NCBI RefSeq assembly: GCF_002834145.1 | Contig: NZ_PHNT01000016.1 | Span: 1-64,000 of the forward strand | DNA from: Roseovarius salinarum | Lineage (GTDB): Bacteria; Pseudomonadota; Alphaproteobacteria; Rhodobacterales; Rhodobacteraceae | Direction: 5' to 3' | DNA length: 64,000 bases | In this document: positions 21,943 to 33,621 of the stretch, in pieces | How the letters are laid out: each line of letters begins with the position of its first letter | Position numbering within the stretch: position 1 is the first letter of the stretch | Notes under the pieces: generated by a model | What the model was told of the DNA's origin: nothing | The model's input: only the letters and a program-made list of their open reading frames with translations | Database searches by the model: none | Position numbers and translations under genes: made by a program

Positions 21943-22128
21943 TCAGCCGTCCGCGCGCATCCCGCCCGTCGCGCGCGCGTCAAGGGTGCCGGCTGCCAGC
22001 GCCGCGCCGCAACAGGCCGGCAGGAACACCATCGCGGCCCGTCGACGGGGCCAGGCCAAGACCAGCCTTGTCGCGTCGCCGCCCGCCGGCACCAGCACGT
22101 GGGTGCTGCGCCGGGGCGGCGCGCTCAT
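21943..22128 (-). CDS. Small coupled membrane-like ORF after hemC
   Basis: A 61-codon frame starts at an ATG whose first bases overlap the hemC stop (ATGA, 22125-22128). It has Arg-rich flanks and a hydrophobic middle segment, AAMVFLPACCGAALAAGTL. I recognise no family. The coupling argues for translation; the biased composition argues that it may be only a chance open frame. Confidence 0.3.
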   Translation of the reverse strand: MSAPPRRSTHVLVPAGGDATRLVLAWPRRRAAMVFLPACCGAALAAGTLDARATGGMRADG

Positions 22129-23087
22129 GCCGTGCGCCAGTCGAAGAAGCCGGGGCCGGCCTGCGCCAGCAACGCCTTGCCCATGTCGTGGCCCAGCGCC
22201 GCGCCGTCCTCGACCGGGGCGGTGCGGTCGTCTGTCAGCCGCTCGGAACCGTCCGGGCGCAGGATCTCGCCGCGCAGCCGCAGGGTGCCGCCCGAGATCT
22301 CGGCCAGCCCGCCGATCGGTGTCTCGCAGGAGCCGTCCAGCGCGGCGAGGAAGGCGCGCTCGGCCGCCAGCCTCTTGCCCGTTTCGGCATCGTGGATCGC
22401 TTCGAGCATGCCGGCCGCGCGGCTGTCGTCGGCGCGCCGCTCGATCGCGATGGCGCCCTGCGCGATGGCGGGCAGCATCTCCTCGGGCGCGACGGGGCCG
22501 CGGGCCACGTCGGCCCGGCCCAGCCGGTTGAGCCCGGCCATCGCGAGGAACGTGCAGGCGGCCACGCCCTCGTCGAGCTTGCGCAGGCGGGTCTGCACGT
22601 TGCCGCGGAACTCGACCACCTCGAGGTGCGGGAAGGCGACAAGCACCTGTGCCCGCCGCCGCAGCGACGAGGTGCCGACGCGGGCGCCCTCGGGCAGGTC
22701 TGCCAGGCCGGCCGCGCCGGGCGAGACGAAGGCATCGCGCACGTCCTCGCGCGGCAGGCAGGTATCGAGCGCCAGCCCCGCGGGCTGTTCCACCGGCATG
22801 TCCTTCATCGAATGCACCGCGACGTCGATGCCGCCCTGCAGCAGCGCCTCCTCGATCTCTCGGGTGAACAGCCCCTTGCCGCCCAGTTCCTTCAGCGGCG
22901 TGTCGCTGGCGATCATCGCGCGGTTGTCCCCGGTGGTCTTGATGACCACGATCTCGAACGCCGCCTGCGGCAGGTCGAAGGCGGCGGCGAGACGGTCGCG
23001 CGTCTCGTGCGCCTGCGCCAGCGCCAGCGGCGAGCCGCGCGTGCCAAGCTTCATCGGGGCGTCGGGTGTGGGCAGGTCCTTTGTCAT
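22125..23087 (-). CDS. hemC: Porphobilinogen deaminase (hydroxymethylbilane synthase)
   Basis: HemC joins four porphobilinogens into hydroxymethylbilane for haem, chlorophyll and cobalamin synthesis. The 320-aa protein has LGTRGSPLALAQA (about 12-24), KELGGKGLFTREIE, VHSMKDMP with the catalytic Asp, TSSLRRRAQVL, and LDGSCETPIGG whose Cys binds the dipyrromethane cofactor. It is divergent from hemE with about 97 bp between starts, the usual arrangement for two consecutive tetrapyrrole steps (hemD is not adjacent). Confidence 0.95.
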   Translation of the reverse strand: MTKDLPTPDAPMKLGTRGSPLALAQAHETRDRLAAAFDLPQAAFEIVVIKTTGDNRAMIASDTPLKELGGKGLFTREIEEALLQGGIDVAVHSMKDMPVEQPAGLALDTCLPREDVRDAFVSPGAAGLADLPEGARVGTSSLRRRAQVLVAFPHLEVVEFRGNVQTRLRKLDEGVAACTFLAMAGLNRLGRADVARGPVAPEEMLPAIAQGAIAIERRADDSRAAGMLEAIHDAETGKRLAAERAFLAALDGSCETPIGGLAEISGGTLRLRGEILRPDGSERLTDDRTAPVEDGAALGHDMGKALLAQAGPGFFDWRTA

Positions 23088-23132
23088 GGCCCCCGTCTAG
23101 TCGGGGCGGCGATTGGTGGCAAGCGCGGGCGC

Positions 23133-23161
23133 TTGACATTGTGCCACGGTGCGGCGATGCG
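23133..23161 (+). promoter_or_regulatory. Possible hemE promoter
   Basis: A consensus -35 box, TTGACA, lies at 23133-23138. With a 17-bp spacer the -10 position is GATGCG, a poor match. It lies 47 bp upstream of the hemE ATG in the hemC-hemE divergent region. Confidence 0.3.
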
Positions 23162-23184
23162 GGGGCAAACCACAGGGGGCACGC

Positions 23185-24219
23185 ATGGCCGAGGCCAAGA
23201 CACTACTGCGGGCGCTGGCGGGCGAGACGCTGCCCACCCCGCCCATCTGGATCATGCGGCAGGCCGGCCGCTACCTGCCGGAATACCGCGAGACCCGCGC
23301 GCAGGCAGGGGATTTCCTGTCGCTTTGCTACAACAGCGACCTGGCGACCGAGGTGACGCTGCAACCCATCCGCCGCTACGGTTTCGATGCCGCCATCCTG
23401 TTCGCCGACATCCTGCTGGTGCCGCAGGCGCTGGGCGCGGACCTGTGGTTCGTCACCGGCGAGGGACCGCGCCTGTCGACGATCACCCGGCAGGCGGAGT
23501 TCGACGCGCTCAAGCCCGCCGCGGAGATCCACGAGACGCTGTCGCCCATCTACCAGACGGTGCGCAACCTGTCCGGCGAATTGCCGGGCGACGTCGCGCT
23601 GATCGGGTTCGCCGGCGCGCCGTGGACGGTGGCGACCTACATGATCGCGGGGCAGGGCACGCCCGACCAGGGCCCGGCGCACGCCCTGAAGGACGAGAAC
23701 CGACCGTTGTTCGAGGCCCTGCTGGAGCGGCTGACCGAGGCCACGATCGAATACCTTTCGGCCCAGATCGACGCCGGTGCGGAATGCGTGAAGCTGTTCG
23801 ACAGCTGGGCAGGGTCGTTGCAGGGCGCGGATTTCGAGGCCTACGCCACCGCCCCCGCGCGCCGCATCATCGCCGAGTTGAAATCGCGGCACGACAACGT
23901 GCCGGTGATCGCGTTCCCGCGGCAGGCGGGCGCGGCCTATACCGGGTTCCACGCCGCCACCGGCGCCGACTGCGTGGCGCTGGACGAAAGCGTCACGCCG
24001 GAGTGGGCCGCGGCCAACGTGCAGGTCAACGGCTGCGTGCAGGGCAACCTGGCCAACACGCACATGGTCACCGGCGGCGAGGCCCTGGTGACCGAGACGC
24101 GCCGCATCGTGGAGGCGTTCTCGGGCGGGCCGCACGTCTTCAACCTGGGCCACGGCATCACGCCGGACGCGGATCCCGACAACGTGCAAAGGATGATCGA
24201 CGCGGTGCGCGGCGGCTGA
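23185..24219 (+). CDS. hemE: Uroporphyrinogen decarboxylase
   Basis: HemE decarboxylates uroporphyrinogen III to coproporphyrinogen III in haem synthesis. The 344-aa protein shows the signature [14 protein letters not shown] (about 23-36), [12 protein letters not shown] with the conserved Asp, and [13 protein letters not shown]. An upstream in-frame ATG at 23149 exists but [14 protein letters not shown] is the normal HemE N-terminus and follows GGGGGC. In Caulobacter, hemE flanks the origin, but no origin features are seen here. Confidence 0.95.
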
Positions 24220-24231
24220 GCGCGCGGCGCC

Positions 24232-24999
24232 TCAGCGCGATTGCTCGTGCTCGAAGCGCTGGCGCGCGATCTCCTCGTTGCGGGCCGTCTTGCGCTGGTC
24301 CTCGAGCTGTTTCTCGACGTAGCCGAGATGCGTCTCCACCGCCTTGCGCGCGCCCTGCGGGTCGTGTGCCTGCAGCGCGGCGTTGATCGCGCGGTGCTGG
24401 TCGAGAAGTTGCTGGCGGCTCGTGCGTTGCTTGAACATGACCTGGCGGTTGTAGAACACGCCCTCACGCAGCAGGTCGAACATCGAGCGCATCATGTGCA
24501 GCATCACCACGTTGTGGCTGGCCTCGATGATCGACAGGTGGAACTCGGCGTCCAGCCGCGCCTCCTCCGCCGGGTTGGAGCGGGCATGCGCCACCTCCAT
24601 CTTGTCGAAGATGGTCTGGATGACCTTCAGGTCGGTTTCGGACGCCAGACGCGCGGCGCGCTCGGCCGCCAGTGCCTCGAGGTCGCGGCGAAAGCCGATG
24701 TAGTCGAACACCGCCTCGTCGTGATCCGCGAACAACCGGATCAGCGCGGGCGAGAACGCGCTTCCCAGAACGTCGGCCACGTAAACGCCCGAGCCCGCGC
24801 GCGACGTCAGCAACCCCTTGTCCTGCAATTCGGAGATCGCGTCGCGCAGCGACGGGCGCGACACGCCCATGCGCTCGGCCAGTTCGCGTTCGGACGGCAG
24901 GCGTTCGCCCGGACGCAGGATGCCGCGCAGGATGAGTTTCTCGATCTGTCGGGTCACGGCGGTGGCAAGTTTCTCCGGGGTGACTTTCTGGAACGGCAT
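24232..24999 (-). CDS. GntR/FadR-family transcriptional regulator
   Basis: The 255-aa protein has an N-terminal winged helix: GERLPSERELAERMGVSRPS (about 33-52) and DAISELQDKGLL. The C-terminal half is an all-helical FCD ligand domain with DAEFHLSIIEASHN and HRAINAALQAHD supplying likely metal or ligand residues. It resembles PdhR/LldR regulators of pyruvate or lactate genes. Target genes are not apparent; its neighbours are hemE (convergent) and cobO. The ATG at 24999 is preferred to the one at 25026 because MPFQKVTPEKLA starts the domain. Confidence 0.85.
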   Translation of the reverse strand: MPFQKVTPEKLATAVTRQIEKLILRGILRPGERLPSERELAERMGVSRPSLRDAISELQDKGLLTSRAGSGVYVADVLGSAFSPALIRLFADHDEAVFDYIGFRRDLEALAAERAARLASETDLKVIQTIFDKMEVAHARSNPAEEARLDAEFHLSIIEASHNVVMLHMMRSMFDLLREGVFYNRQVMFKQRTSRQQLLDQHRAINAALQAHDPQGARKAVETHLGYVEKQLEDQRKTARNEEIARQRFEHEQSR

Positions 25000-25085
25000 C
25001 GCGGTATCCTGATGGGATCGGTCCACGGATGATATGGCGCGCGTTCACCTGCGGCAAGCGGCCGGCCGGCGCGGTTGCCGTGTCG

Positions 25086-25694
25086 TCAGTATTCCACGCC
25101 GATCTGTGCCTTGATGCCCGCGCGGAACGGGTGCTTGACCAGTTCCATCTCGGTCACGAGGTCGGCGGCCTCGATCAGCGCGTCATTGGCGTTGCGCCCG
25201 GTGAGCACGACATGCGTCATCTCGGGTTTCTCGGTGGCGAGGAATTCAACCACCTCGTCCACGTCGAGGTAGTCGTAGCGCAGCGCGATGTTGATCTCGT
25301 CGAGCAGGACCATGCGGATCTCGGGATCGCGGATCAGGTCCTTGGCCTTGTCCCACGCGGCGCGGGCCATCTCGATGTCGCGGTCGCGGTTCTGGGTTTC
25401 CCAGGTGAACCCCTCGCCCATCGTGTGGAACTGGCAGATGTCCGCGAAATGCGACTGGATCAGTTCGCGCTCGCCCGTGCCCATGCCACCCTTGATGAAC
25501 TGGACGACCGCGCAGGGCATCTCGTGGGCGATGCAGCGGAAGATCATGCCGAAGGCGGCCGATGACTTGCCCTTGCCCTTGCCCGTGTGGACGATCACAA
25601 GGCCCTTCTCGTCGGTCTTTGTGGCCATGATCTTTTCGCGCGCGGCCTTCTTCTTGGCCATCTTCGCGGCATGACGGTCGCTGTCGTCGCTCAT
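25086..25694 (-). CDS. cobO: Cob(I)yrinic acid a,c-diamide adenosyltransferase
   Basis: CobO/BtuR transfers the adenosyl group of ATP to Co(I) of the corrinoid to form the adenosylcobalamin upper ligand. The 202-aa protein has the P-loop VHTGKGKGKSSAAFG (about 35-49), FIKGGMGTGE, and ALRYDYLDVDEVVEFL near the C-terminus. The ATG at 25694 (MSDDSDRHAAKMAKKK) follows AGGAGG; the longer frame to 25748 adds only Arg-rich sequence. Other cobalamin genes lie at 28.0-33.6 and 40.3-42.6 kb. Confidence 0.94.
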   Translation of the reverse strand: MSDDSDRHAAKMAKKKAAREKIMATKTDEKGLVIVHTGKGKGKSSAAFGMIFRCIAHEMPCAVVQFIKGGMGTGERELIQSHFADICQFHTMGEGFTWETQNRDRDIEMARAAWDKAKDLIRDPEIRMVLLDEINIALRYDYLDVDEVVEFLATEKPEMTHVVLTGRNANDALIEAADLVTEMELVKHPFRAGIKAQIGVEY

Positions 25695-25828
25695 CTGGTC
25701 CTCCTGTCGCGGTCGCGCGAGTCTGTGCGAGCGCGCGGGCACGCGCAAGCCGTTTTCTGCGGACCGGAACGAAAAGCGCGGGACGCCGGAGGAGGACGCC
25801 CCGCGCAGGTTCCGGCGGCGGAGAAAGC

Positions 25829-27043
25829 TTATTCCGCCGGCACCATCCCGGTGGCTTCACGCGGGCGGAAATGCTGTCGGTTGAGCCGCAGCATCAGCCA
25901 GATCATCAGGATCTGCGCGGCCAGCGCGACGGCGGTGAGCGCCCAGTAGGCGGTGCCGAACTTGTCGATCACGCCGGCAGCCACCAGCCCCTTGTTGACG
26001 AAGAAGTGGGTCATGACCGCGAAGGCGACGCCGGGGCAGATCAGCGCGTAGGACCCGGGCGAGGTCTTGGGGCCCGTCACGAAGTCCTTGAAGTAGCCCT
26101 GCCGCCGCAGAACCGCCCAGCCCAGCAGCAGGAACAGGATCTCGACCGCCAGGAGCCGGGCGAGGAACACCAGCATCTCGCCGGGGGACCCCTCGGTGCC
26201 GAACTCGACGTGCATGCCGTGGCTCTGGCGCATGAACATGATGCCAAGCACGGTCATGATCGGAACCACCACCATCAGCGTCGGGCCGGCCTCCTTGGCG
26301 GTGCCGTAATGCAGCATCGAGTTGAAGCCGGTGATCGCGGCCACCACGGTATAGAGGATCGCGGCGACGCCGAAAAACGTGCTCAGCACCAGGCTGGCGC
26401 CCACGGTCACGGTGGCCGTGCTCATCGCCGAGGGGGCGGCGAGCCCGACGGCGACCATCGAGATGGCGAAGGCCGGCAGCAGTTGCGCGAAGGAGTTGTG
26501 CGCGGTCATGTCGAATTCGCCCCCGCCGGCGAGCACGCGCCCCAAAAAATCGCCGATCAGCCGCAGCGCCCAGGCGCCGATGGCCAGGAACGCCACCAGG
26601 GCGGCCGGGAACAGGTATTCGACGATGCCCCACAGCCCCGGCACGAAGACCATCCCGAGGATGAACAGCACGTTGACGGTCATCGCCGTGGCCAGCGGCG
26701 CGGCCAGCAGGGTGGTCTCGGCGTTTGACCGGCGCAGCGTGGCGTATTGCGGCGTGCGCGCGAAGCGGCGCAGCGCGGCGACGTTCCACAGCAGCGACTT
26801 GACGTTGAGAAAGGCCATCGCGGCGATGCCGATCATGGCCACCACGATGGCGACCCGCATCGCCGGGCCGCCGGTGGAGAAGGCGGCCATGATGTCCTCG
26901 AACACGGGCACGGGCTGCCCGGGGTGAGGGACCCAGAACAGCAGGTACATGAAGAAGGTGACGGTCAGCCCGCCGGCGCCCAGCGACGCCAGGAAATAGA
27001 GCGGCGAGTAGGTGTCGGCGGGACGGGTCGCAGGAAGGGACAT
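25829..27043 (-). CDS. Ten-helix membrane protein of unknown function (possible TsoY-like transporter)
   Basis: The 404-aa product has about ten transmembrane segments and few charged residues in them. Conserved-looking features include NVKSLLWNVAALRRFARTP, APSAMSTATVTVG and MTHFFVNKGLVAAGVIDKFG. I do not firmly recognise the family; it faintly recalls transporters annotated TsoY-like or tellurite/dicarboxylate carriers. The ribosome binding site AGGAGGCC is ideal. Immediately upstream are two operator-like sites (27058-27077 and 27083-27102) of the ATTC-N8-GAAT form recalled for persulfide-sensing ArsR-type repressors, which hints at transport of a sulfur compound. That role is an inference from the sites only. 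Confidence 0.6.
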   Translation of the reverse strand: MSLPATRPADTYSPLYFLASLGAGGLTVTFFMYLLFWVPHPGQPVPVFEDIMAAFSTGGPAMRVAIVVAMIGIAAMAFLNVKSLLWNVAALRRFARTPQYATLRRSNAETTLLAAPLATAMTVNVLFILGMVFVPGLWGIVEYLFPAALVAFLAIGAWALRLIGDFLGRVLAGGGEFDMTAHNSFAQLLPAFAISMVAVGLAAPSAMSTATVTVGASLVLSTFFGVAAILYTVVAAITGFNSMLHYGTAKEAGPTLMVVVPIMTVLGIMFMRQSHGMHVEFGTEGSPGEMLVFLARLLAVEILFLLLGWAVLRRQGYFKDFVTGPKTSPGSYALICPGVAFAVMTHFFVNKGLVAAGVIDKFGTAYWALTAVALAAQILMIWLMLRLNRQHFRPREATGMVPAE

Positions 27044-27057
27044 GGCAGGCCTCCTAT

Positions 27058-27102
27058 ATATGCCAATATTGGAATATAACTAACATTCGAGATGTGGAAT
27101 AC
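27058..27102 (-). promoter_or_regulatory. Two tandem ATTC-N8-GAAT operator-like sites
   Basis: Site 1 is ATATGC (27058-27063), N8 CAATATTG, GAATAT (27072-27077); its N8 is itself a perfect palindrome. Site 2 is ACATTC (27083-27088), N8, GAATAC (27097-27102). Centres are 25 bp apart. They sit between the ribosome binding site of the leftward membrane-protein gene and the start region of the rightward lipoprotein gene, in an A+T-rich island. The pattern matches what I recall for SqrR/BigR-type sulfide-responsive ArsR repressors. Confidence 0.5.
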
Positions 27103-27166
27103 AATGGCATTGATTGTCGCAGCAGGCGGCAAGACCCTGTTAACCACATTGCGGCAACGCTGGGTC

Positions 27167-27559
27167 ATGCGGTTGGCCCCTTTGTTTGCCGTGGTGTTCG
27201 CCCTGGCGGGCTGCAACACACCGAGCCCGGAGTTCCGGGGCGCGGAACCGGTGCGCCTGACGCTGGGGCAAAGCACCTTCGACGTGCGCGTCGCCGGTGA
27301 CAGGGCGCAGGCGATTCGGCGCAATGTCGAATGGGCGCCGCGGCTGCAGGCTGTCGCGCCCCGTGCCATCGCCGCGATCGAGGCGGTCAGCGGCTGCGCG
27401 GTTTCGCACCTTGACGGGGATGCCGCCGTCACCGAGGCGCGGCTGGACTGTGGCGAGGGGCGGCGCCTGCCGTTGCCGCCCCGGCCGGCCGGCTACACCT
27501 GCGAGGTCGAGACGGCTTTCGACGGGCACGTCGAACTCTACTGCCTGCCGCGTGACTGA
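27167..27559 (+). CDS. Small lipoprotein of unknown function
   Basis: The 130-aa product begins MRLAPLFAVVFALAGCNTPS, a signal peptide with lipobox LAGC (C16). The mature part has a cysteine-containing half, VSGCAVSHLDGD and RLDCGEG, plus YTCEVETAFDGHVELYCLPR, so two disulfides are possible. An in-frame ATG exists at 27092, but starting there would put 25 non-signal residues before the signal peptide and would place the operator-like sites in coding sequence. No family recognised. Confidence 0.7.
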   Translation: MRLAPLFAVVFALAGCNTPSPEFRGAEPVRLTLGQSTFDVRVAGDRAQAIRRNVEWAPRLQAVAPRAIAAIEAVSGCAVSHLDGDAAVTEARLDCGEGRRLPLPPRPAGYTCEVETAFDGHVELYCLPRD

Positions 27560-27568
27560 CCGTGCCGC

Positions 27569-27946
27569 TCAGGCCGGATCGCGCTGCCCCGGCGCGATCC
27601 AGCCCAGCCGCTCGTCGGCGTGGAAGTCATCTGTGGGAATGATCGAGCCGGGATCGTCGAGAAGGGCGGCGTGGAAATGCGTCTCGCCGGGCTCGCGGCT
27701 GCTGCCATAGGCCACAGACGCCCCGCAGACCGGACAGAAATAGCGCAGCGTTCCCGGTGAGGACGCGTAGCTGGACGGCGGTGCCCCGGTCCAGCGCCAC
27801 GCGCCGTTGGGATGGCCGATGAACGTGACGACGCCCGCGCCTGTCGCGCGCCGGCAGCTTGCGCAGTGGCAGTGGCCGACCCATCGGGACGAGCCCAACA
27901 GTTCGAAGGTGACCGACCCGCAAAGACAATACCCGAAACGTGTCAT
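27569..27946 (-). CDS. GFA/CENP-V family zinc protein
   Basis: The 125-aa protein has the glutathione-dependent formaldehyde-activating enzyme (GFA) cysteine pattern: CLCGSVTF (about 7-14), CHCASCRRATG (about 26-36) and CPVCGASVAYGS (about 75-86), which together bind two zinc ions. Members have varied roles and few are true formaldehyde enzymes. The start MTRFGYCLCGSV at 27946 is standard; an ATG at 27973 adds nine residues. It lies downstream of cobN in the same direction, 88 bp away, with no evident link to cobalamin. Confidence 0.85.
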   Translation of the reverse strand: MTRFGYCLCGSVTFELLGSSRWVGHCHCASCRRATGAGVVTFIGHPNGAWRWTGAPPSSYASSPGTLRYFCPVCGASVAYGSSREPGETHFHAALLDDPGSIIPTDDFHADERLGWIAPGQRDPA

Positions 27947-28034
27947 GCCTGGCGCCTTCCGTTCAGGGGTCATCCTGCCCGTGCCGGCCCCCGCTGTCCA
28001 GAACGATGCCCGCCCCGGGGCGGGCGCGGCAGGG

Positions 28035-31000
28035 TCAGCCACGCGCGGCGGTGATGCGGCCGCGCGCCGAGTTCGATCGTGGCATCCACAGCCCGCGGTC
28101 GATCGCCTCCTGCAGGCGCTCGGCAATCTCGCGCAGGGCCGGCGCGTTGTGGTCGGCGATGAAAGCGCGGGTCTCGTCGTCTTCGAGGAAGGCCGATTCG
28201 ACGAGGTCGAAATGATGCCCCCGGACCGCGCCGGTCGTGGCCGCGAAGGCGAACAGGTAGTCCACCGTCGCCGCCATCTCGAAGGCGCCCTTGTAGCCGT
28301 GCCGCTTCACCCCGTCGATCCACTTGGGGTTCACCACGCGGGAGCGAACAACGCGCCCGATCTCGTCGTCCAGCGTTCGGATGACAGGGCGCTCGGGGCG
28401 CGAGTGATCGTTGTGATAAAGGGGCCGGTCGCGCCCCTGCAGCGTGGCGATGGCGGCCGCCGCGCCGCCCTCGAACTGGTAGTAGTCGTCCGAATCGAGG
28501 ATGTCGTGTTCGCGGTTGTCCTGGTTCTGGACGATGGCCTCGGTTTCGCGCAGGCGGGTCTCGAAGCCGGCGCGGTCGGCCTGGCCTTCCGTGCCCGCGC
28601 CATAGGCGTAGCTGCCCCATTGCAGGTAGGCCTCGGCGAGGTCGGCGCGCTCGGACCAGAGCCGTTCGTCGATCAGCGCCTGCAGCCCCGCGCCGTATGC
28701 ACCCGGCTTGGCCCCGTAAACGCGCGGCGCGGCCCCCTCGGCGGCGGCGCGGGCGGCGGCGGGGTTCACGTCCTCGGGTTCGTCCATCTCCATCACCGCG
28801 CGGGCGGCGGAATCGAACAGCGCGATGAGCTGGGGGAAGGCATCGCGGAAGAACCCCGAGATGCGCAGCGTGACATCCACCCGCGGGCGGCCAAGCACGG
28901 TCTGTGGCAACACCTCGAAACCGGTGACGCGGCGGTTCGCGCTGTCCCAGGTGGGCTTGACGCCCATGAGCGCAAGCGCTTGCGCGATATCGTCGCCGCC
29001 GGTGCGCATGTTGGCCGTGCCCCAGGCGTTGACCAGCAGGCTGCGCGGCCAGTCGCCGTGGTCCTGTAAGTGCTTCTCGATCAGCAGGTTGGCCGACTTC
29101 CATCCCAGCGTCCAGGCGGTGGGCGTGGGCACGGCTCGGCTGTCCACGGAAAAGAAGTTGCGGCCCGTGGGCAGCGTGTCGAGGCGCCCGCGCGTCGGCG
29201 CCCCGGAGGGCGCCGGCGGCAGAAACCGCCCCGAGAGCGCGGCAAGCAGCCCCTCGCCCTCGGCCGGGCCGCAGGCCTGAAGGCGCGGGTGCACGTCGCG
29301 CGCGGCCGCGTCCAGAACGGCGCGGCTCATCGGCCCCGGCGGGGTCGTTTCGCCGTCGAGCAGGCGTGCCGCCATCGCTTCGAGGCGTTCGACCGTGTCG
29401 CCGTGGCTGCGCCACGGGCCGGGCGCGGCATCGGCAAGGGCCGCGGGCCGGGCGCCTTCCCACGTCGCGGCCATGTCGCAATCCAGCGGGTCGAACGACA
29501 GCCCCAGGTCGTCGGCCAATGCCCGGATGATCGAGGCGTCCCGGCCCCTGCCCTGCCCGCGCGGCACCCGCAGCAGCGCCTGAAGCAGGTCGCGCGCCTG
29601 CGGTCCCGCGGGCGACTGTCCGAAGACGTGAAGCCCGTCGCGGATCTGCGCCTCCTTCAGTTCGCACAGGTAGGCGTCGAGCCGGGCGAGGTCGGTGTCC
29701 TCGTCCTCGCCCGAAAGCCCGGCGTCCCTGTCCAGCCCCGTGGCCGAGGTCAACGACAGGATTTCCCGGCGCAGGTGATCGATGCGGCGCGGATCGACCC
29801 CGGCGGCCTCGTAATACTCGTCCACCAACGCCTCGAGATCCTTCATCGGCCCGTAGCTTTCGGCGCGCGTCAGCGGTGGCGTCAGGTGATCGACGATCAC
29901 CGCCTGCGCGCGCCGCTTGGCCTGCGTGCCCTCGCCGGGGTCGTTGACGATGAAGGGATAGACGTGCGGCGTTGGGCCAAGCACGGCCTCGGGCCAGCAT
30001 TCTTCGCTCAGCGCCAGTGCCTTGCCGGGCAGCCATTCCAGGTTGCCGTGCTTGCCCATGTGCACGATGGCATCGGCGCGGAACTGGTGGCGCAGCCAGA
30101 AATAGAAGGCAAGGTAATTGTGCGGCGGCACGAGGTCGGGCGAATGGTAGGTGTCCGTGGGGTCGATGTTGTAGCCGCGCGCGGGTTGAAGCCCGACGAC
30201 GACGTTGCCGTATTGCAGCACCGACAGGGCGAAGTGGCCGCAATCCACCGCGCCGGGGGTGTAGAAGGGGTCGGCCTCGGGCGGGCCCCAGCGTTCCTCG
30301 ATCGCCCGGCGCAGCGCCCAGGGCAGCCGGCCGTAGTCGATCTGGTAGTCGGCCATGGACATCTGCACGCCGCCCGCCCGCTCGGCGCGGTCGGTCAGCC
30401 AGTTCGTCGGCCCGGCCATGACCGCCTGCATCAGCGCGTCGCTGTCGGCCGGGGGGGCCGAGACGCGGTAGCCCGCCTCGCGCAGCAGCCCCAGTGCATG
30501 GACGGTGGCCGCGGGCGTGTCCAGCCCCACGCCGTTGGCGAGCCGCCCGTCCTTGTTGGGATAGTTCGCCAGCACCAGCGCGACGCGGCGGTCGGCCTCG
30601 GGCGTGGCGCGCAGGCGTGCCCAGCGGGCGGCGAGCTGCGCGGTGAACGTCACGCGGTCGCCCTGGGCGCGGTAGGTGGCGACGGGACACTGGGTGGCCT
30701 CGTCGAAGAATGCCTCGTCCTTGAAGCTGACGGCGCGGGAAAGCACGCGGCCGTCCACCTCGGGCAGGGCCACGTTCATCGCGATGTCGCGTGCCGAAAG
30801 CCCGTGCTTGCCCTCGGCCCAGGCGGTTTCGGACGAGCCGGCCAGCACCACCTGGAAGACGGGGGCCGCGTTCGCCTCGGGCATGGTCAGGGGGTTGTCG
30901 GCGCCGTGCTCCGCGTCGTGCGGGGATCCGACCGCGAAGGCGGTGCAGTTGAGGATCACCTCGGGCGGCGCGGCGGCGAACAGCCCCTGCAGGGTGGCCA

Positions 31001-31736
31001 CCGAGAGCGGATCCTTCAGCGAGGCCACGAAAACGGGAAGGGGGTTGAGCCCTTCGCGAAGCAGCGCCTTGACCATGCGGTTGACCGGGTTCAACCCGGC
31101 GCCCTGCACCAGCGCGCGATAGAACACCAGCGGCACGACCGGCTGGCCCTCGGTCCAGTGAGCCTGCGCGGCGGCGAGGTCGGCCACGCCCGCACCGGGC
31201 CAGTAGACCCCCGCGCGCAGCAGCGGGCTGGCGGCGGCGGGTCTTTCCGTGCCGTCGAGCACTGCGCCGGCGTAGCGCAGGAAGTTCGCCGCGTTCTCCG
31301 GCCCGCCCTCGACGAGATAGGCCCAGAGCGCATCGTAGTCCGCGTCGCCGACGGTGGACAGCCGCCGCAGCTCGGCGTCGGGCTTGTCGTCGCCCGGCAG
31401 CAGGACCAGCGGCACGCCGGCCTCGTGGAGCCGCGCCGCGTATTGCTCGACCCCGTAACGCCAGTACCCCGTGCCGCCGAGCACCCGCGCGACCACCAGG
31501 CGTGACCGGGTCGCGCAGTTGTCGAGGTGCAGGTCAACCGACATCGGGTGCTGCAGGTAGCCCATGTTCATCAGCCGCAGGCCGGGCGGATCGGCCATTT
31601 CCGCGCGCGCGGCGCTGAGCGCTGCCAGCTCGGTGTCGGCGGCCGAGATGAACACGATGTCGGTGGGCGTCTGGCCGGGATCGACGGCCTCCGTTCCGTC
31701 GTCGATGGCGCCCGGAGTGGCGGCAAGAAGGTGCAT
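28035..31736 (-). CDS. cobN: Cobaltochelatase subunit CobN
   Basis: CobN is the large subunit of the ATP-dependent aerobic cobaltochelatase (with CobS and CobT) that inserts Co(II) into hydrogenobyrinic acid a,c-diamide. The 1233-aa length is typical. Family segments include HMGKHGNLEWLPGK, PFIVNDPGEGTQAKRRAQAV, TGRNFFSVDSRAVPT and LVNAWGTANMRTGGDD. CobS and CobT are not in this window. The start at 31736 (MHLLAATPG) is preferred to 31787. It lies 97 bp after cobW; that gap holds a 9-bp G+C hairpin (31777-31797) without a T-run. Confidence 0.95.
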   Translation of the reverse strand: MHLLAATPGAIDDGTEAVDPGQTPTDIVFISAADTELAALSAARAEMADPPGLRLMNMGYLQHPMSVDLHLDNCATRSRLVVARVLGGTGYWRYGVEQYAARLHEAGVPLVLLPGDDKPDAELRRLSTVGDADYDALWAYLVEGGPENAANFLRYAGAVLDGTERPAAASPLLRAGVYWPGAGVADLAAAQAHWTEGQPVVPLVFYRALVQGAGLNPVNRMVKALLREGLNPLPVFVASLKDPLSVATLQGLFAAAPPEVILNCTAFAVGSPHDAEHGADNPLTMPEANAAPVFQVVLAGSSETAWAEGKHGLSARDIAMNVALPEVDGRVLSRAVSFKDEAFFDEATQCPVATYRAQGDRVTFTAQLAARWARLRATPEADRRVALVLANYPNKDGRLANGVGLDTPAATVHALGLLREAGYRVSAPPADSDALMQAVMAGPTNWLTDRAERAGGVQMSMADYQIDYGRLPWALRRAIEERWGPPEADPFYTPGAVDCGHFALSVLQYGNVVVGLQPARGYNIDPTDTYHSPDLVPPHNYLAFYFWLRHQFRADAIVHMGKHGNLEWLPGKALALSEECWPEAVLGPTPHVYPFIVNDPGEGTQAKRRAQAVIVDHLTPPLTRAESYGPMKDLEALVDEYYEAAGVDPRRIDHLRREILSLTSATGLDRDAGLSGEDEDTDLARLDAYLCELKEAQIRDGLHVFGQSPAGPQARDLLQALLRVPRGQGRGRDASIIRALADDLGLSFDPLDCDMAATWEGARPAALADAAPGPWRSHGDTVERLEAMAARLLDGETTPPGPMSRAVLDAAARDVHPRLQACGPAEGEGLLAALSGRFLPPAPSGAPTRGRLDTLPTGRNFFSVDSRAVPTPTAWTLGWKSANLLIEKHLQDHGDWPRSLLVNAWGTANMRTGGDDIAQALALMGVKPTWDSANRRVTGFEVLPQTVLGRPRVDVTLRISGFFRDAFPQLIALFDSAARAVMEMDEPEDVNPAAARAAAEGAAPRVYGAKPGAYGAGLQALIDERLWSERADLAEAYLQWGSYAYGAGTEGQADRAGFETRLRETEAIVQNQDNREHDILDSDDYYQFEGGAAAAIATLQGRDRPLYHNDHSRPERPVIRTLDDEIGRVVRSRVVNPKWIDGVKRHGYKGAFEMAATVDYLFAFAATTGAVRGHHFDLVESAFLEDDETRAFIADHNAPALREIAERLQEAIDRGLWMPRSNSARGRITAARG

Positions 31737-31833
31737 CAGCCCAGTCCTTCGCGCATCTCTCCGCGGCAGCCGTCCCGGCCCGGGCAAGGCCCGGGCCAGC
31801 AGTGCGCCGGGGCTGTCGGCGCGGGACGGGGCA

Positions 31834-32895
31834 TCAGGCCGACAGCGCGGTTTCGATCGCCGCGCGGTCGAGTCCCGCCTGACCGATCACCACGAGGCGC
31901 GTTTCGCGCGGATCGGCGCCGAAGGGGCGGTCGAAATAGGTATCGACGCGCGGGCCGACGGCCTGTAGCGCCAGCCGCATCGGCTTGCCCTCCACCGCGG
32001 CGAATCCCTTGAGCCGCAGGATGTCGTGGGTGCGGATGACGTCGGCGACCGTTTCGGCGAACCCTTTCGCATCGGCGATCTCGGGGCGGGTGATCACGAA
32101 GCTTTCGAAATCGTCGTGGTCATGTTCGTGGTGGTGATGGTGGTCGTCGCCGTCGTCGTCATGGTGATGATGGTGCAACTCGTGGCGGCCGGCCATGTCG
32201 GCCTCTGCGCCCGCGCCCTGGCCCAGCAGCACCTCGAGCGGCAGCGCGCCCATCCGCGCCGGGATCACCTGCACGCCGTCGCGCGACTGCGCGCGCAGTT
32301 TTTCGGACAGCGCATCCGCGTCCGCCTCGCCCATCAGGTCCGCCTTGTTGACGACGATCATGTCGGCGCAGCTCATCTGGTCGGCGAAAAGTTCCGACAG
32401 CGGGGTTTCGTGGTCGAGGTTCTCGTCCTGCCGGCGCTGGGCGTCCACCGCGGCGGTGTCGTGCGCGAAGCGGCCCGCGGCCACCGCCGGGCCGTCGACG
32501 ACGGTCACCACGCCGTCGACGGTGACGCGCGTGGCGATCTCGGGCCAGTTGAAGGCGCGCACCAGCGGCTGGGGCAGCGCCAGCCCGGAGGTTTCGATCA
32601 CGATGTGATCGGGGGCCGCGTCGCGCTCGATCAGTTTCTGCATCGTGGGTACGAAATCCTCGGCCACGGTGCAGCAGATGCAGCCGTTGGAAAGCTCCAT
32701 CACGTCGTCGTCGGCACACCCCTCGATGCCGCAGCCCTTGATGATGTCGCCGTCAACGCCGAGATCGCCGAACTCGTTGATGATCAGAGCGATCCGGCGA
32801 TCGCCGGCATTGTCCAGCATGTGCCGGATCACGGTGGTCTTGCCGGCGCCGAGGAAGCCGGTCACGACGGTGGCGGGTATCTTTTTGCTGGGCAT
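31834..32895 (-). CDS. cobW: CobW GTPase, cobalt metallochaperone
   Basis: CobW is a COG0523 GTPase thought to deliver cobalt to the CobNST chelatase. The 353-aa protein has Walker A TGFLGAGKTT (about 12-21), the metal-binding CICC motif in NGCICCTV (about 69-76), NKAD guanine specificity (about 181-184), and a His/Asp-rich loop between about 235 and 262 that includes several runs of five histidines or fewer. The CobW C-terminal domain follows. It lies between hupE and cobN, all reading leftward. Confidence 0.94.
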   Translation of the reverse strand: MPSKKIPATVVTGFLGAGKTTVIRHMLDNAGDRRIALIINEFGDLGVDGDIIKGCGIEGCADDDVMELSNGCICCTVAEDFVPTMQKLIERDAAPDHIVIETSGLALPQPLVRAFNWPEIATRVTVDGVVTVVDGPAVAAGRFAHDTAAVDAQRRQDENLDHETPLSELFADQMSCADMIVVNKADLMGEADADALSEKLRAQSRDGVQVIPARMGALPLEVLLGQGAGAEADMAGRHELHHHHHDDDGDDHHHHHEHDHDDFESFVITRPEIADAKGFAETVADVIRTHDILRLKGFAAVEGKPMRLALQAVGPRVDTYFDRPFGADPRETRLVVIGQAGLDRAAIETALSA

Positions 32896-32926
32896 GGGGC
32901 ACCTTCACTCGGAACGCGGAGCGGGC

Positions 32927-32958
32927 AAAGAAAAAGGCGGCCCGGGGAACGGGCCGCC
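32927..32958 (-). terminator. Intrinsic terminator between hupE and cobW
   Basis: On the minus strand a perfect 9-bp stem (32950-32958 with 32936-32944) with a 5-nt loop is followed by TTTTTCTTT (complement of 32927-32935). It lies after the hupE stop and 31 bp before the cobW start, so the riboswitch-controlled hupE transcript should end here at least partly. Confidence 0.8.
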
Positions 32959-32976
32959 CGGCGGGATGCGCGCGGG

Positions 32977-33621
32977 TCAGCCCGCGATCAGGGCGACCAG
33001 CGGCCCCTCGACGGTCTCGAGCGTCAGGAACACGCCGACACCGGCCACCATCGCACCGACGAGCCGGGCATTGACCGCGGAGGCCTCACGCGCCCCGAGC
33101 ATCCTTTCTGCCACCCAGCCGGCGGCGATCGCGATGGCGTACTGGATCACGCCAAGCCCGATCAGGTAGCCGGTGAGAACACCCGCGTTCACGCCGCCTT
33201 CCTGCGCGGCGATGCTGCCGCCGAAGGCCGAGCCGTGGAACAGGCCGAAGGCCGCGAAAAGCGCGACGGCCGTGCCCGCGCCCAGCGCGCGGCCCGACAG
33301 GACCACGGCGCCGACGACCAGAAGCGACAGCGCGATCATGACTTCCGCCATCGGCATGCCGACGCCCGCGTACATCAAGCCGCATCCCGTCAGCATCGCG
33401 GCGATGTATCCGGCGGGCGCCGTGTAACGCCCGGCGGTGAACAGCGCGGCCACGCCCATCGCGATGACGAAGAAGGCATGGTCGAAGCCGAGAACCGGGT
33501 GCCCGATGCCCGACAGAAGGCCATGCGCAAAGGTTTCCATGGGCTGGCCGGCCAGCGGGTGGTGTGCCAGCGCGGGCGTGGCGGCGACGCTGGCTGCGGC
33601 GATTGCGAGAAGTTTCTTCAT
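32977..33621 (-). CDS. HupE/UreJ-family metal permease, likely cobalt importer
   Basis: The 214-aa membrane protein has a signal peptide and the HupE/UreJ pattern HPLAGQPMETFAHGLLSGIG (about 21-40) and HPVLGFDHAFFVIAMG (about 41-56), then six helices with FGLFHGSAFGG. His/Asp residues in the first helix bind Ni or Co. Its position directly behind a cobalamin riboswitch and ahead of cobW and cobN indicates cobalt uptake for B12 synthesis instead of nickel for urease or hydrogenase. Confidence 0.88.
   Translation of the reverse strand: MKKLLAIAAASVAATPALAHHPLAGQPMETFAHGLLSGIGHPVLGFDHAFFVIAMGVAALFTAGRYTAPAGYIAAMLTGCGLMYAGVGMPMAEVMIALSLLVVGAVVLSGRALGAGTAVALFAAFGLFHGSAFGGSIAAQEGGVNAGVLTGYLIGLGVIQYAIAIAAGWVAERMLGAREASAVNARLVGAMVAGVGVFLTLETVEGPLVALIAG

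Follow-up and report, generated by a model that had tools for sequence, protein, structure and literature searches.

The region upstream of tsoY carries a tandem pair of sites that we consider probably to be the operator of a persulfide-released repressor, and TsoY itself is most likely a sulfur-oxyanion channel or exporter with a thiol at its gate. The region lies within the window, by which we mean the whole 64-kb stretch of DNA that was analysed, and the features concerned are as follows.

25829..27043, minus strand: tsoY, coding for a 404-aa, ten-helix membrane protein of the TsoY family (NF047644) with a predicted SLAC1/TehA fold
27060..27075, no strand assigned: putative proximal operator site of tsoY, ATGC-N8-GAAT (ATGCCAATATTGGAAT), with one mismatch to ATTC-N8-GAAT and beginning at -32 on the tsoY strand
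27085..27100, no strand assigned: putative distal operator site of tsoY, exact ATTC-N8-GAAT (ATTCGAGATGTGGAAT), beginning at -57 from the tsoY start
27167..27559, plus strand: divergent small lipoprotein gene, sharing the A+T-rich island and probably outside the tsoY unit (start placed by eye according to the signal peptide)

The preliminary description had noted a ten-helix membrane protein, a divergent lipoprotein ORF and a short A+T-rich island around two ATTC-N8-GAAT sites 25 bp apart. Both ORFs are as it described them, and the island was borne out, as the sites fall in the 56-bp segment with the highest A+T content in the window, 70% at the best position vs 31% for the window as a whole. 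The start-to-start spacing is indeed 25 bp and 27085-27100 is an exact match, whereas 27060-27075 departs from the claimed form at one position. The motif itself, which it had assigned to SqrR/BigR-type repressors, is in print as the deduced site of RcSqrR (PMC9774250).

Although 27085-27100 is the sole exact ATTC-N8-GAAT in the 64 kb, at least one exact match was also found in 28 of 100 shuffles of the window, and the 3.4-Mb genome holds 13 exact sites where about 17 are predicted from the window shuffle rate. Site counts in the window or genome alone are near chance, and the support for a tsoY operator is comparative. When the window was scored with a 24-bp matrix built without its own tsoY promoter, the proximal and distal sites reached 34.3 and 30.2 bits, respectively, with the next best place in the 64 kb at -2.3 and a maximum of 16.1 bits in 20 mononucleotide shuffles. 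A sigma-70-type promoter match was looked for at the window's tsoY sites and was not found.

To follow the sites in relatives, a TsoY protein query was run against 295 genomes of the same family (taken as Rhodobacteraceae, judged from named relatives), which gave 83 genomes with tsoY, the window's genome included; all 83 promoters were counted, two incomplete genes among them. An exact site was present no more than 150 bp upstream of tsoY in 53 of the 83 genomes, the other 30 promoters having no exact match, and a tandem pair, defined as at most one mismatch in all and a spacing of 24-26 bp, was present in 31 (spacing 25 bp in 14, 24 bp in 11 and 26 bp in 6). By comparison, 100 dinucleotide shuffles gave, for the same two counts, means of 0.46 (maximum 2) and 0. 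A second collection of named relatives, which comprised the best 80 of 519 matches and was therefore biased to close relatives, and which overlapped with the first set rather than being independent of it, had an exact site in 72/80 and a tandem pair in 53/80 promoters. Chance as the origin of the tsoY sites is rejected by this conservation in orthologous promoters. We conclude that the sites, their conservation and their sharing with other genes (see below) are real by computation.

The wider operator consensus was WTAYATTC-N8-GAATRTAW. Among 144 distinct upstream regions there were 71 tandem promoters, and in 43 of these the distal site is preceded by a TTGACA-like hexamer whose first base is exactly 5 nt ahead of it; this would place the distal site in the -35/-10 spacer and the proximal site over the -10/start region. 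We also noted an FNR-type box (TTGAY-N4-RTCAA) upstream of tsoY in 20 of the 144 distinct promoters, with 0.1 expected from mononucleotide shuffles; in the 12 cases for which a position was printed, for example L025 and L026, it lies 71-87 bp before the tsoY start. These boxes suggest low-oxygen control of tsoY in part of the family. No full FNR-type box was seen by eye in the window's own tsoY promoter.

A SqrR/BigR homologue, the search for which had been put forward as a check, was sought in the genome with a positive outcome. There are seven ArsR-type matches, four of which were scanned with NCBIfam, and two of the seven are SqrR-like and have both cysteines:

C1:18804-19175: SoxR-type ArsR protein, part of the sox cluster and adjacent to a TsuA-like transporter gene
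C9:59615-59968: clade-B ArsR protein, with no recognised sulfur genes nearby (by eye)

For both proteins the best solved relative is the ArsR regulator of PDB entries 13ct and 6o8k-6o8o (1e-36 for SoxR and 7.7e-33 for clade B), which we take to be Rhodobacter capsulatus SqrR. Both of the SqrR sensing cysteines are present in 30/30 SoxR-type and 30/30 clade-B proteins (best 30 per query). The C1 and C9 proteins scored 93.8 and 105.1 bits against the NCBIfam BigR equivalog NF040642, below its cut-off of 155 bits, and we therefore regard them as the same kind of protein but not as BigR proper. When 61 proteins (SqrR plus the 30 top matches for each type) were placed in a tree, SoxR-type and clade-B proteins fell into two separate groups with SqrR outside both, the deeper order being unsure as few columns were available.

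Clade B was found in 66 of the 295 genomes at a threshold that we set. It accompanied 28 of the 31 tandem promoters vs 8 of the 52 other tsoY promoters (p 8e-12), the exceptions being three tandem promoters without clade B and eight clade-B genomes without a tandem. When the 81-tip TsoY tree was taken into account, a model in which clade B and the tandem depend on each other was better than an independent one (p 7e-4); the same tree-aware test for any exact site against clade B gave no dependence (p 0.38). A SqrR/SoxR-like protein (SoxR query, E <= 1e-22) is present in 81/83 TsoY-positive vs 149/212 TsoY-negative genomes. The two TsoY-positive genomes that lack one, G065 and G257, also lack the site, although the clade-B query does give a weak match in G065 (6e-22), so that this exception rests on the threshold.

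On these comparisons the tandem appears more likely to be read by the clade-B protein of C9, with SoxR as a possible second reader. It is possible, though less likely, that SoxR of the sox cluster reads the operator instead, or that the two repressors do so to the same extent, which would make tsoY an outlying member of the sox regulon. SoxR is the closer of the two to the solved SqrR, its sox cluster contains two of the genome's exact sites, and in 19 genomes that lack clade B tsoY is still preceded by an exact site, though not by the tandem; moreover the promoter region bound by Hyphomicrobium denitrificans SoxR is described as giving two shifted bands, which its authors read as two sites (PMC10451225). 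It is the tandem form, however, that follows clade B, both in the counts and on the tree, and in one genome (G076) the tandem and clade B occur although SoxY gave no match. Autoregulation of clade B was considered and rejected, as no good site was found within 30 clade-B loci (the best, 11.0 bits, occurring in 1/30), and nothing local thus ties the clade-B repressor to the site.

The membrane protein had been described as unassigned, and this can be corrected: it matches the NCBIfam TsoY family NF047644 with 527 bits vs a cut-off of 150 (residues 12-390, profile positions 1-378 of 378), whereas the seleno-TsoY model NF047643 gave 52.4 bits vs a cut-off of 250. Tso stands for 'three selenoprotein operon' in a review (PMC13188914) that cites Haft and Tolstoy 2025 for TsoY. 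No function for TsoY was found in print by a search that excluded Haft and Tolstoy 2025, the cited source of the Tso names, and the SLAC1 fold of TsoY may have been described earlier in that work. Pfam gave no family for TsoY at E <= 1, SLAC1 (PF03595) included, and a TsoY profile run against PDB chains and against one TDT protein gave no sequence similarity to SLAC1/TehA. An AlphaFold2 model of TsoY built from 61 sequences (pLDDT 85.7, pTM 0.86) nevertheless has ten long helices and matches 22 SLAC1/SLAH/TehA entries with Z of 24.6-29.2 over 293-318 residues at 9-15% identity, the next, unrelated row being at 14.1; the top 21 rows from Foldseek are of the same SLAC1/TehA family, with E of only 3e-3 to 8e-2. 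TsoY is therefore predicted from the model to be a SLAC1/TehA-fold membrane protein, with the fold extending over nearly its whole length.

One codon of tsoY is of particular relevance to this fold:

26036..26038, minus strand: TGC codon of the invariant Cys336 (C-P-G-V), which the model places where TehA/SLAC1 have their gating Phe

Cys336 is the one cysteine that is invariant in 81/81 aligned family members (two incomplete proteins were left out of this alignment), and it is also invariant in a set of 61 sequences; among the 81, His40 and His275 are likewise invariant and His391 is found in 80/81. For the gate placement, residues 1-345 were folded alone and the end of the alignment at residue 345 was read off. 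It lies opposite residue 271 in all 12 TehA entries, 459 in five AtSLAC1 entries, 469 in 7en0, which we take to be BdSLAC1, and 526 in SLAH3. If the last nine helix residues are ungapped, Cys336 would fall on TehA F262, AtSLAC1 F450, BdSLAC1 F460 and SLAH3 F517, the Phe in SLAC1 and SLAH3 being that of the YTFP motif, and the SLAH1 counterpart would be residue 307. TehA F262 and AtSLAC1 F450 are gate residues (PMC11050165, PMC10645844), and BdSLAC1 F460 is given as their counterpart (PMC10645844). The TM9 gating Phe of SLAC1/TehA is thus absent from TsoY and, by this placement, Cys336 takes its position, so that an invariant thiol would stand where the pore-blocking Phe of the family stands. 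A UxxV motif of seleno-TsoY is listed in the review (PMC13188914), and Cys336 is apparently the selenocysteine site of seleno-TsoY.

With regard to the company that TsoY keeps, SoxY is present in 73/83 TsoY-positive vs 121/212 TsoY-negative genomes (p 1.6e-7). G278, the one further genome of this genus that was sampled, has no TsoY, SoxY, SoxR-type or clade-B match at the thresholds used, as expected if these proteins work together. In G478, a genome from another family of the phylum, a same-strand cluster surrounds TsoY:

L282:678-8093 (G478:C1), in order: SLAC1/TDT (PF03595), TsoY, octaheme cytochrome (TIGR04315), cytochrome b561-type subunit, Blh-type persulfide-dioxygenase-like protein, TIGR01244-SQR-like fusion

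Four of these genes, those for TsoY, the octaheme cytochrome, the persulfide-dioxygenase-like protein and the SQR-like fusion (with SulP), are scattered in the window's genome, where they carry the site or directly adjoin it. No site was found before TsoY in G478 itself, and neither a site nor, by eye, a cluster of this kind was seen at the other two out-of-family TsoY loci examined (G447 and G304). Co-occurrence of the octaheme cytochrome with TsoY is weak over 398 genomes of the phylum (4/12 vs 41/386, p 0.04). We did note that TsoY of G478 directly follows a classical SLAC1-family gene, and mixed TsoY/SLAC1 trimers are conceivable there. A selenocysteine form of TsoY was not obtained; a distant, unannotated tsoY on the Aliarcobacter cryaerophilus plasmid pCNAC48 (L279 from 6001), about 1.2 kb from a SulP gene, proved to be a frameshift-broken cysteine form.

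We propose, tentatively and as something possible rather than probable, that TsoY is a new branch of the SLAC1/TehA superfamily in which an invariant thiol (a selenol in other lineages) replaces the pore-blocking Phe, so that the gate could become persulfidated or oxidised, and that, being made under a persulfide-released repressor, it would vent sulfite, thiosulfate or polysulfide as a sulfur-gated sulfur channel. A rather unlikely alternative is that TsoY has a SLAC1-like scaffold but is a membrane thiol or selenol enzyme and no channel, acting for instance with the octaheme cytochrome as its partner in sulfur transfer or in a quinone-linked step. Such an enzyme would account for an invariant Cys that is apparently selenocysteine in other lineages (UxxV, PMC13188914), for the conserved histidines, and for the position of TsoY in G478 beside the octaheme cytochrome with a cytochrome b next. 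However, the anion-channel fold is predicted over nearly the whole of TsoY, Cys336 is modelled at the pore gate position, and by eye no conserved sulfur or cytochrome neighbour of tsoY is seen in the named relatives (best 80 of 519).

The preliminary description had also advised looking for the same sites near sulfide oxidation genes, and here too the outcome was positive, since 8 of the genome's 12 other exact sites lie 21-85 bp before sulfur genes. These eight exact sites are found before:

soxC (TIGR04555)
soxX (TIGR04485)
a gene for a secreted rhodanese-like protein (marginal, 22.4 bits at a cut-off of 22.2)
a gene for a DsrE-like protein
a gene for an octaheme cytochrome of the tetrathionate reductase family (TIGR04315, 598 bits)
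a gene for a YeeE/YedE-type transporter
a SulP gene directly after the gene for a TIGR01244-SQR-like fusion, with the site between the two (L107:1848-3518; G000:C56)
a gene for a SoxH-like metallohydrolase (below the NCBIfam cut-off)

The protein of L107:1848-3518 is an SQR-like flavoprotein fused to a TIGR01244 sulfurtransferase/phosphatase-like domain. A weaker site, with one core mismatch, precedes a pair of genes for a persulfide-dioxygenase-like protein (Blh-type, partial model match) and a rhodanese; the SoxH-like, SQR-like and Blh-type labels all rest on scores below the NCBIfam cut-offs. When the extended pattern was searched with up to three mismatches, 32 places were found in the genome vs 7 for a reversed control. 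With one mismatch, the proximal site of tsoY shares the top rank, and the eight places with no more than two mismatches include both tsoY sites and four of the sulfur sites.

The four other exact sites lie away from sulfur genes, one in the gap between a LysR-type and a fructose-bisphosphatase gene (by eye), one inside an ORF and two in unclear places. Matches at C4:6642, C14:26874, C12:149465 (inside an ORF) and C29:305 look by eye like chance. The LysR-type protein beside G000:C34:90126-90141 is CbbR-like by eye, and a link of sulfur sensing to carbon fixation is possible at this site. On the same contig a site-like sequence of 21.3 bits (G000:C34:67389-67410), with an adjoining FNR-like box, follows a gene for an ABC-type protein that resembles CydC by eye, and it is possibly situated before cytochrome bd genes.

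The sharing of sites also bears on the idea that another regulator, unrelated to sulfur, binds before tsoY and that the ATTC-N8-GAAT form is coincidental. The assignment of the motif to SqrR is a deduction in the literature (PMC9774250), and one exact site does lie between the LysR-type and fructose-bisphosphatase genes, both named by eye, but with sulfur genes at eight of the 12 other exact sites and SqrR/SoxR homologues in 81 of the 83 TsoY-positive genomes we regard this as improbable.

The lipoprotein had been proposed as a member of the same unit, and this was not borne out by the named relatives (best 80 of 519). The site is kept in 42/47 relatives with the lipoprotein and in 30/33 without it, and it is likewise independent of cobO; we conclude that the predicted operator belongs to tsoY. 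In line with the reading of the signal peptide, the lipoprotein start was placed at 27167 and not at the ATG at 27092, which lies inside the second site. It is very improbable, and largely refuted by these counts, that the sites act on the divergent lipoprotein or the cobalamin genes and adjoin tsoY only fortuitously: although the lipoprotein gene lies at the same island in the window and occurs close to tsoY in 43-47 of the 80 relatives, and cobO follows tsoY in the window, the sites are equally frequent without the lipoprotein, cobO is near tsoY in only 14/80, and in the 83-genome set most sites are at similar distances from the tsoY start. Several features of the neighbourhood were recorded in passing. 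Over 22125-33000 of the window tsoY lies among tetrapyrrole/cobalamin genes (cobO and cobW by model; hemC, hemE and cobN by eye); the minus strand encodes a GFA-domain (glutathione-dependent formaldehyde-activating) protein at 27572-27943 and, at 32980-33621, adjoining cobW, a membrane protein that is HupE/UreJ-like by eye and has no NCBIfam match.

Taken as a prediction from sequence, the regulation of tsoY is well supported by computation. We infer that at low sulfane sulfur a dimeric ArsR-type repressor of the SqrR/BigR/SoxR kind would bind and occupy the tandem sites, where, judging from the alignment of orthologous promoters, it would cover the -35/-10 spacer and the start region. The unlinked clade-B protein of C9 would be the better candidate for the tandem pair, and SoxR of the sox cluster may share it. 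The signal would be persulfide from SQR and the Sox route, which would cross-link the two cysteines of the repressor and so release it, a reaction that has been published for the cysteines of SqrR (PMC9774250). tsoY would then be derepressed together with the scattered sulfur-oxidation genes that bear the same site. TsoY would pass sulfite or thiosulfate across the inner membrane in the outward direction, and its gate thiol may respond to the same sulfur. Transport is suggested here by the predicted fold, and the choice of substrate is a guess, sulfite and thiosulfate being what persulfide dioxygenase and the Sox/SQR routes would be expected to yield.

For a family known by name from selenoprotein operons, these findings provide a predicted fold, a candidate pathway and a testable residue. 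They would tie TsoY to the persulfide response by its regulation, to sulfide oxidation by a distant gene cluster and to anion channels by its fold. If the proposal is true, TsoY would be a candidate route for sulfite or thiosulfate out of the cytoplasm in marine sulfur-oxidising alphaproteobacteria, and possibly the first SLAC1-type channel to carry a thiol or selenol at its gate.

The closest published parallel to the predicted operator is that of R. capsulatus SqrR, with which the present system shares the ATTC-N8-GAAT form and the two conserved cysteines, and which controls sqr, a rhodanese and other sulfide-response genes (PMC9774250, PMC9995734). It differs in that the predicted operator before tsoY is a tandem pair, mostly with a spacing of 24-26 bp, and in that there are two paralogues here, neither of which groups with SqrR in a tree of few columns. 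SoxR and sHdrR of H. denitrificans are similarly paired ArsR-type sulfane-sulfur repressors over sulfur-oxidation genes (PMC10451225, PMC12423496); the targets described for them lie in one sulfur-oxidation region, whereas here they are scattered over several contigs. With the SLAC1/TehA (TDT) channels TsoY shares the predicted ten-helix fold and, as in SLAC1, a proline after the gate residue, but it has no Pfam SLAC1 match and an invariant Cys would stand in place of the gating Phe. Within its own family it matches NF047644, and its C-P-G-V fits the UxxV of seleno-TsoY (PMC13188914), although the protein encoded in the window is the cysteine form and scores far below the cut-off of the seleno model NF047643.
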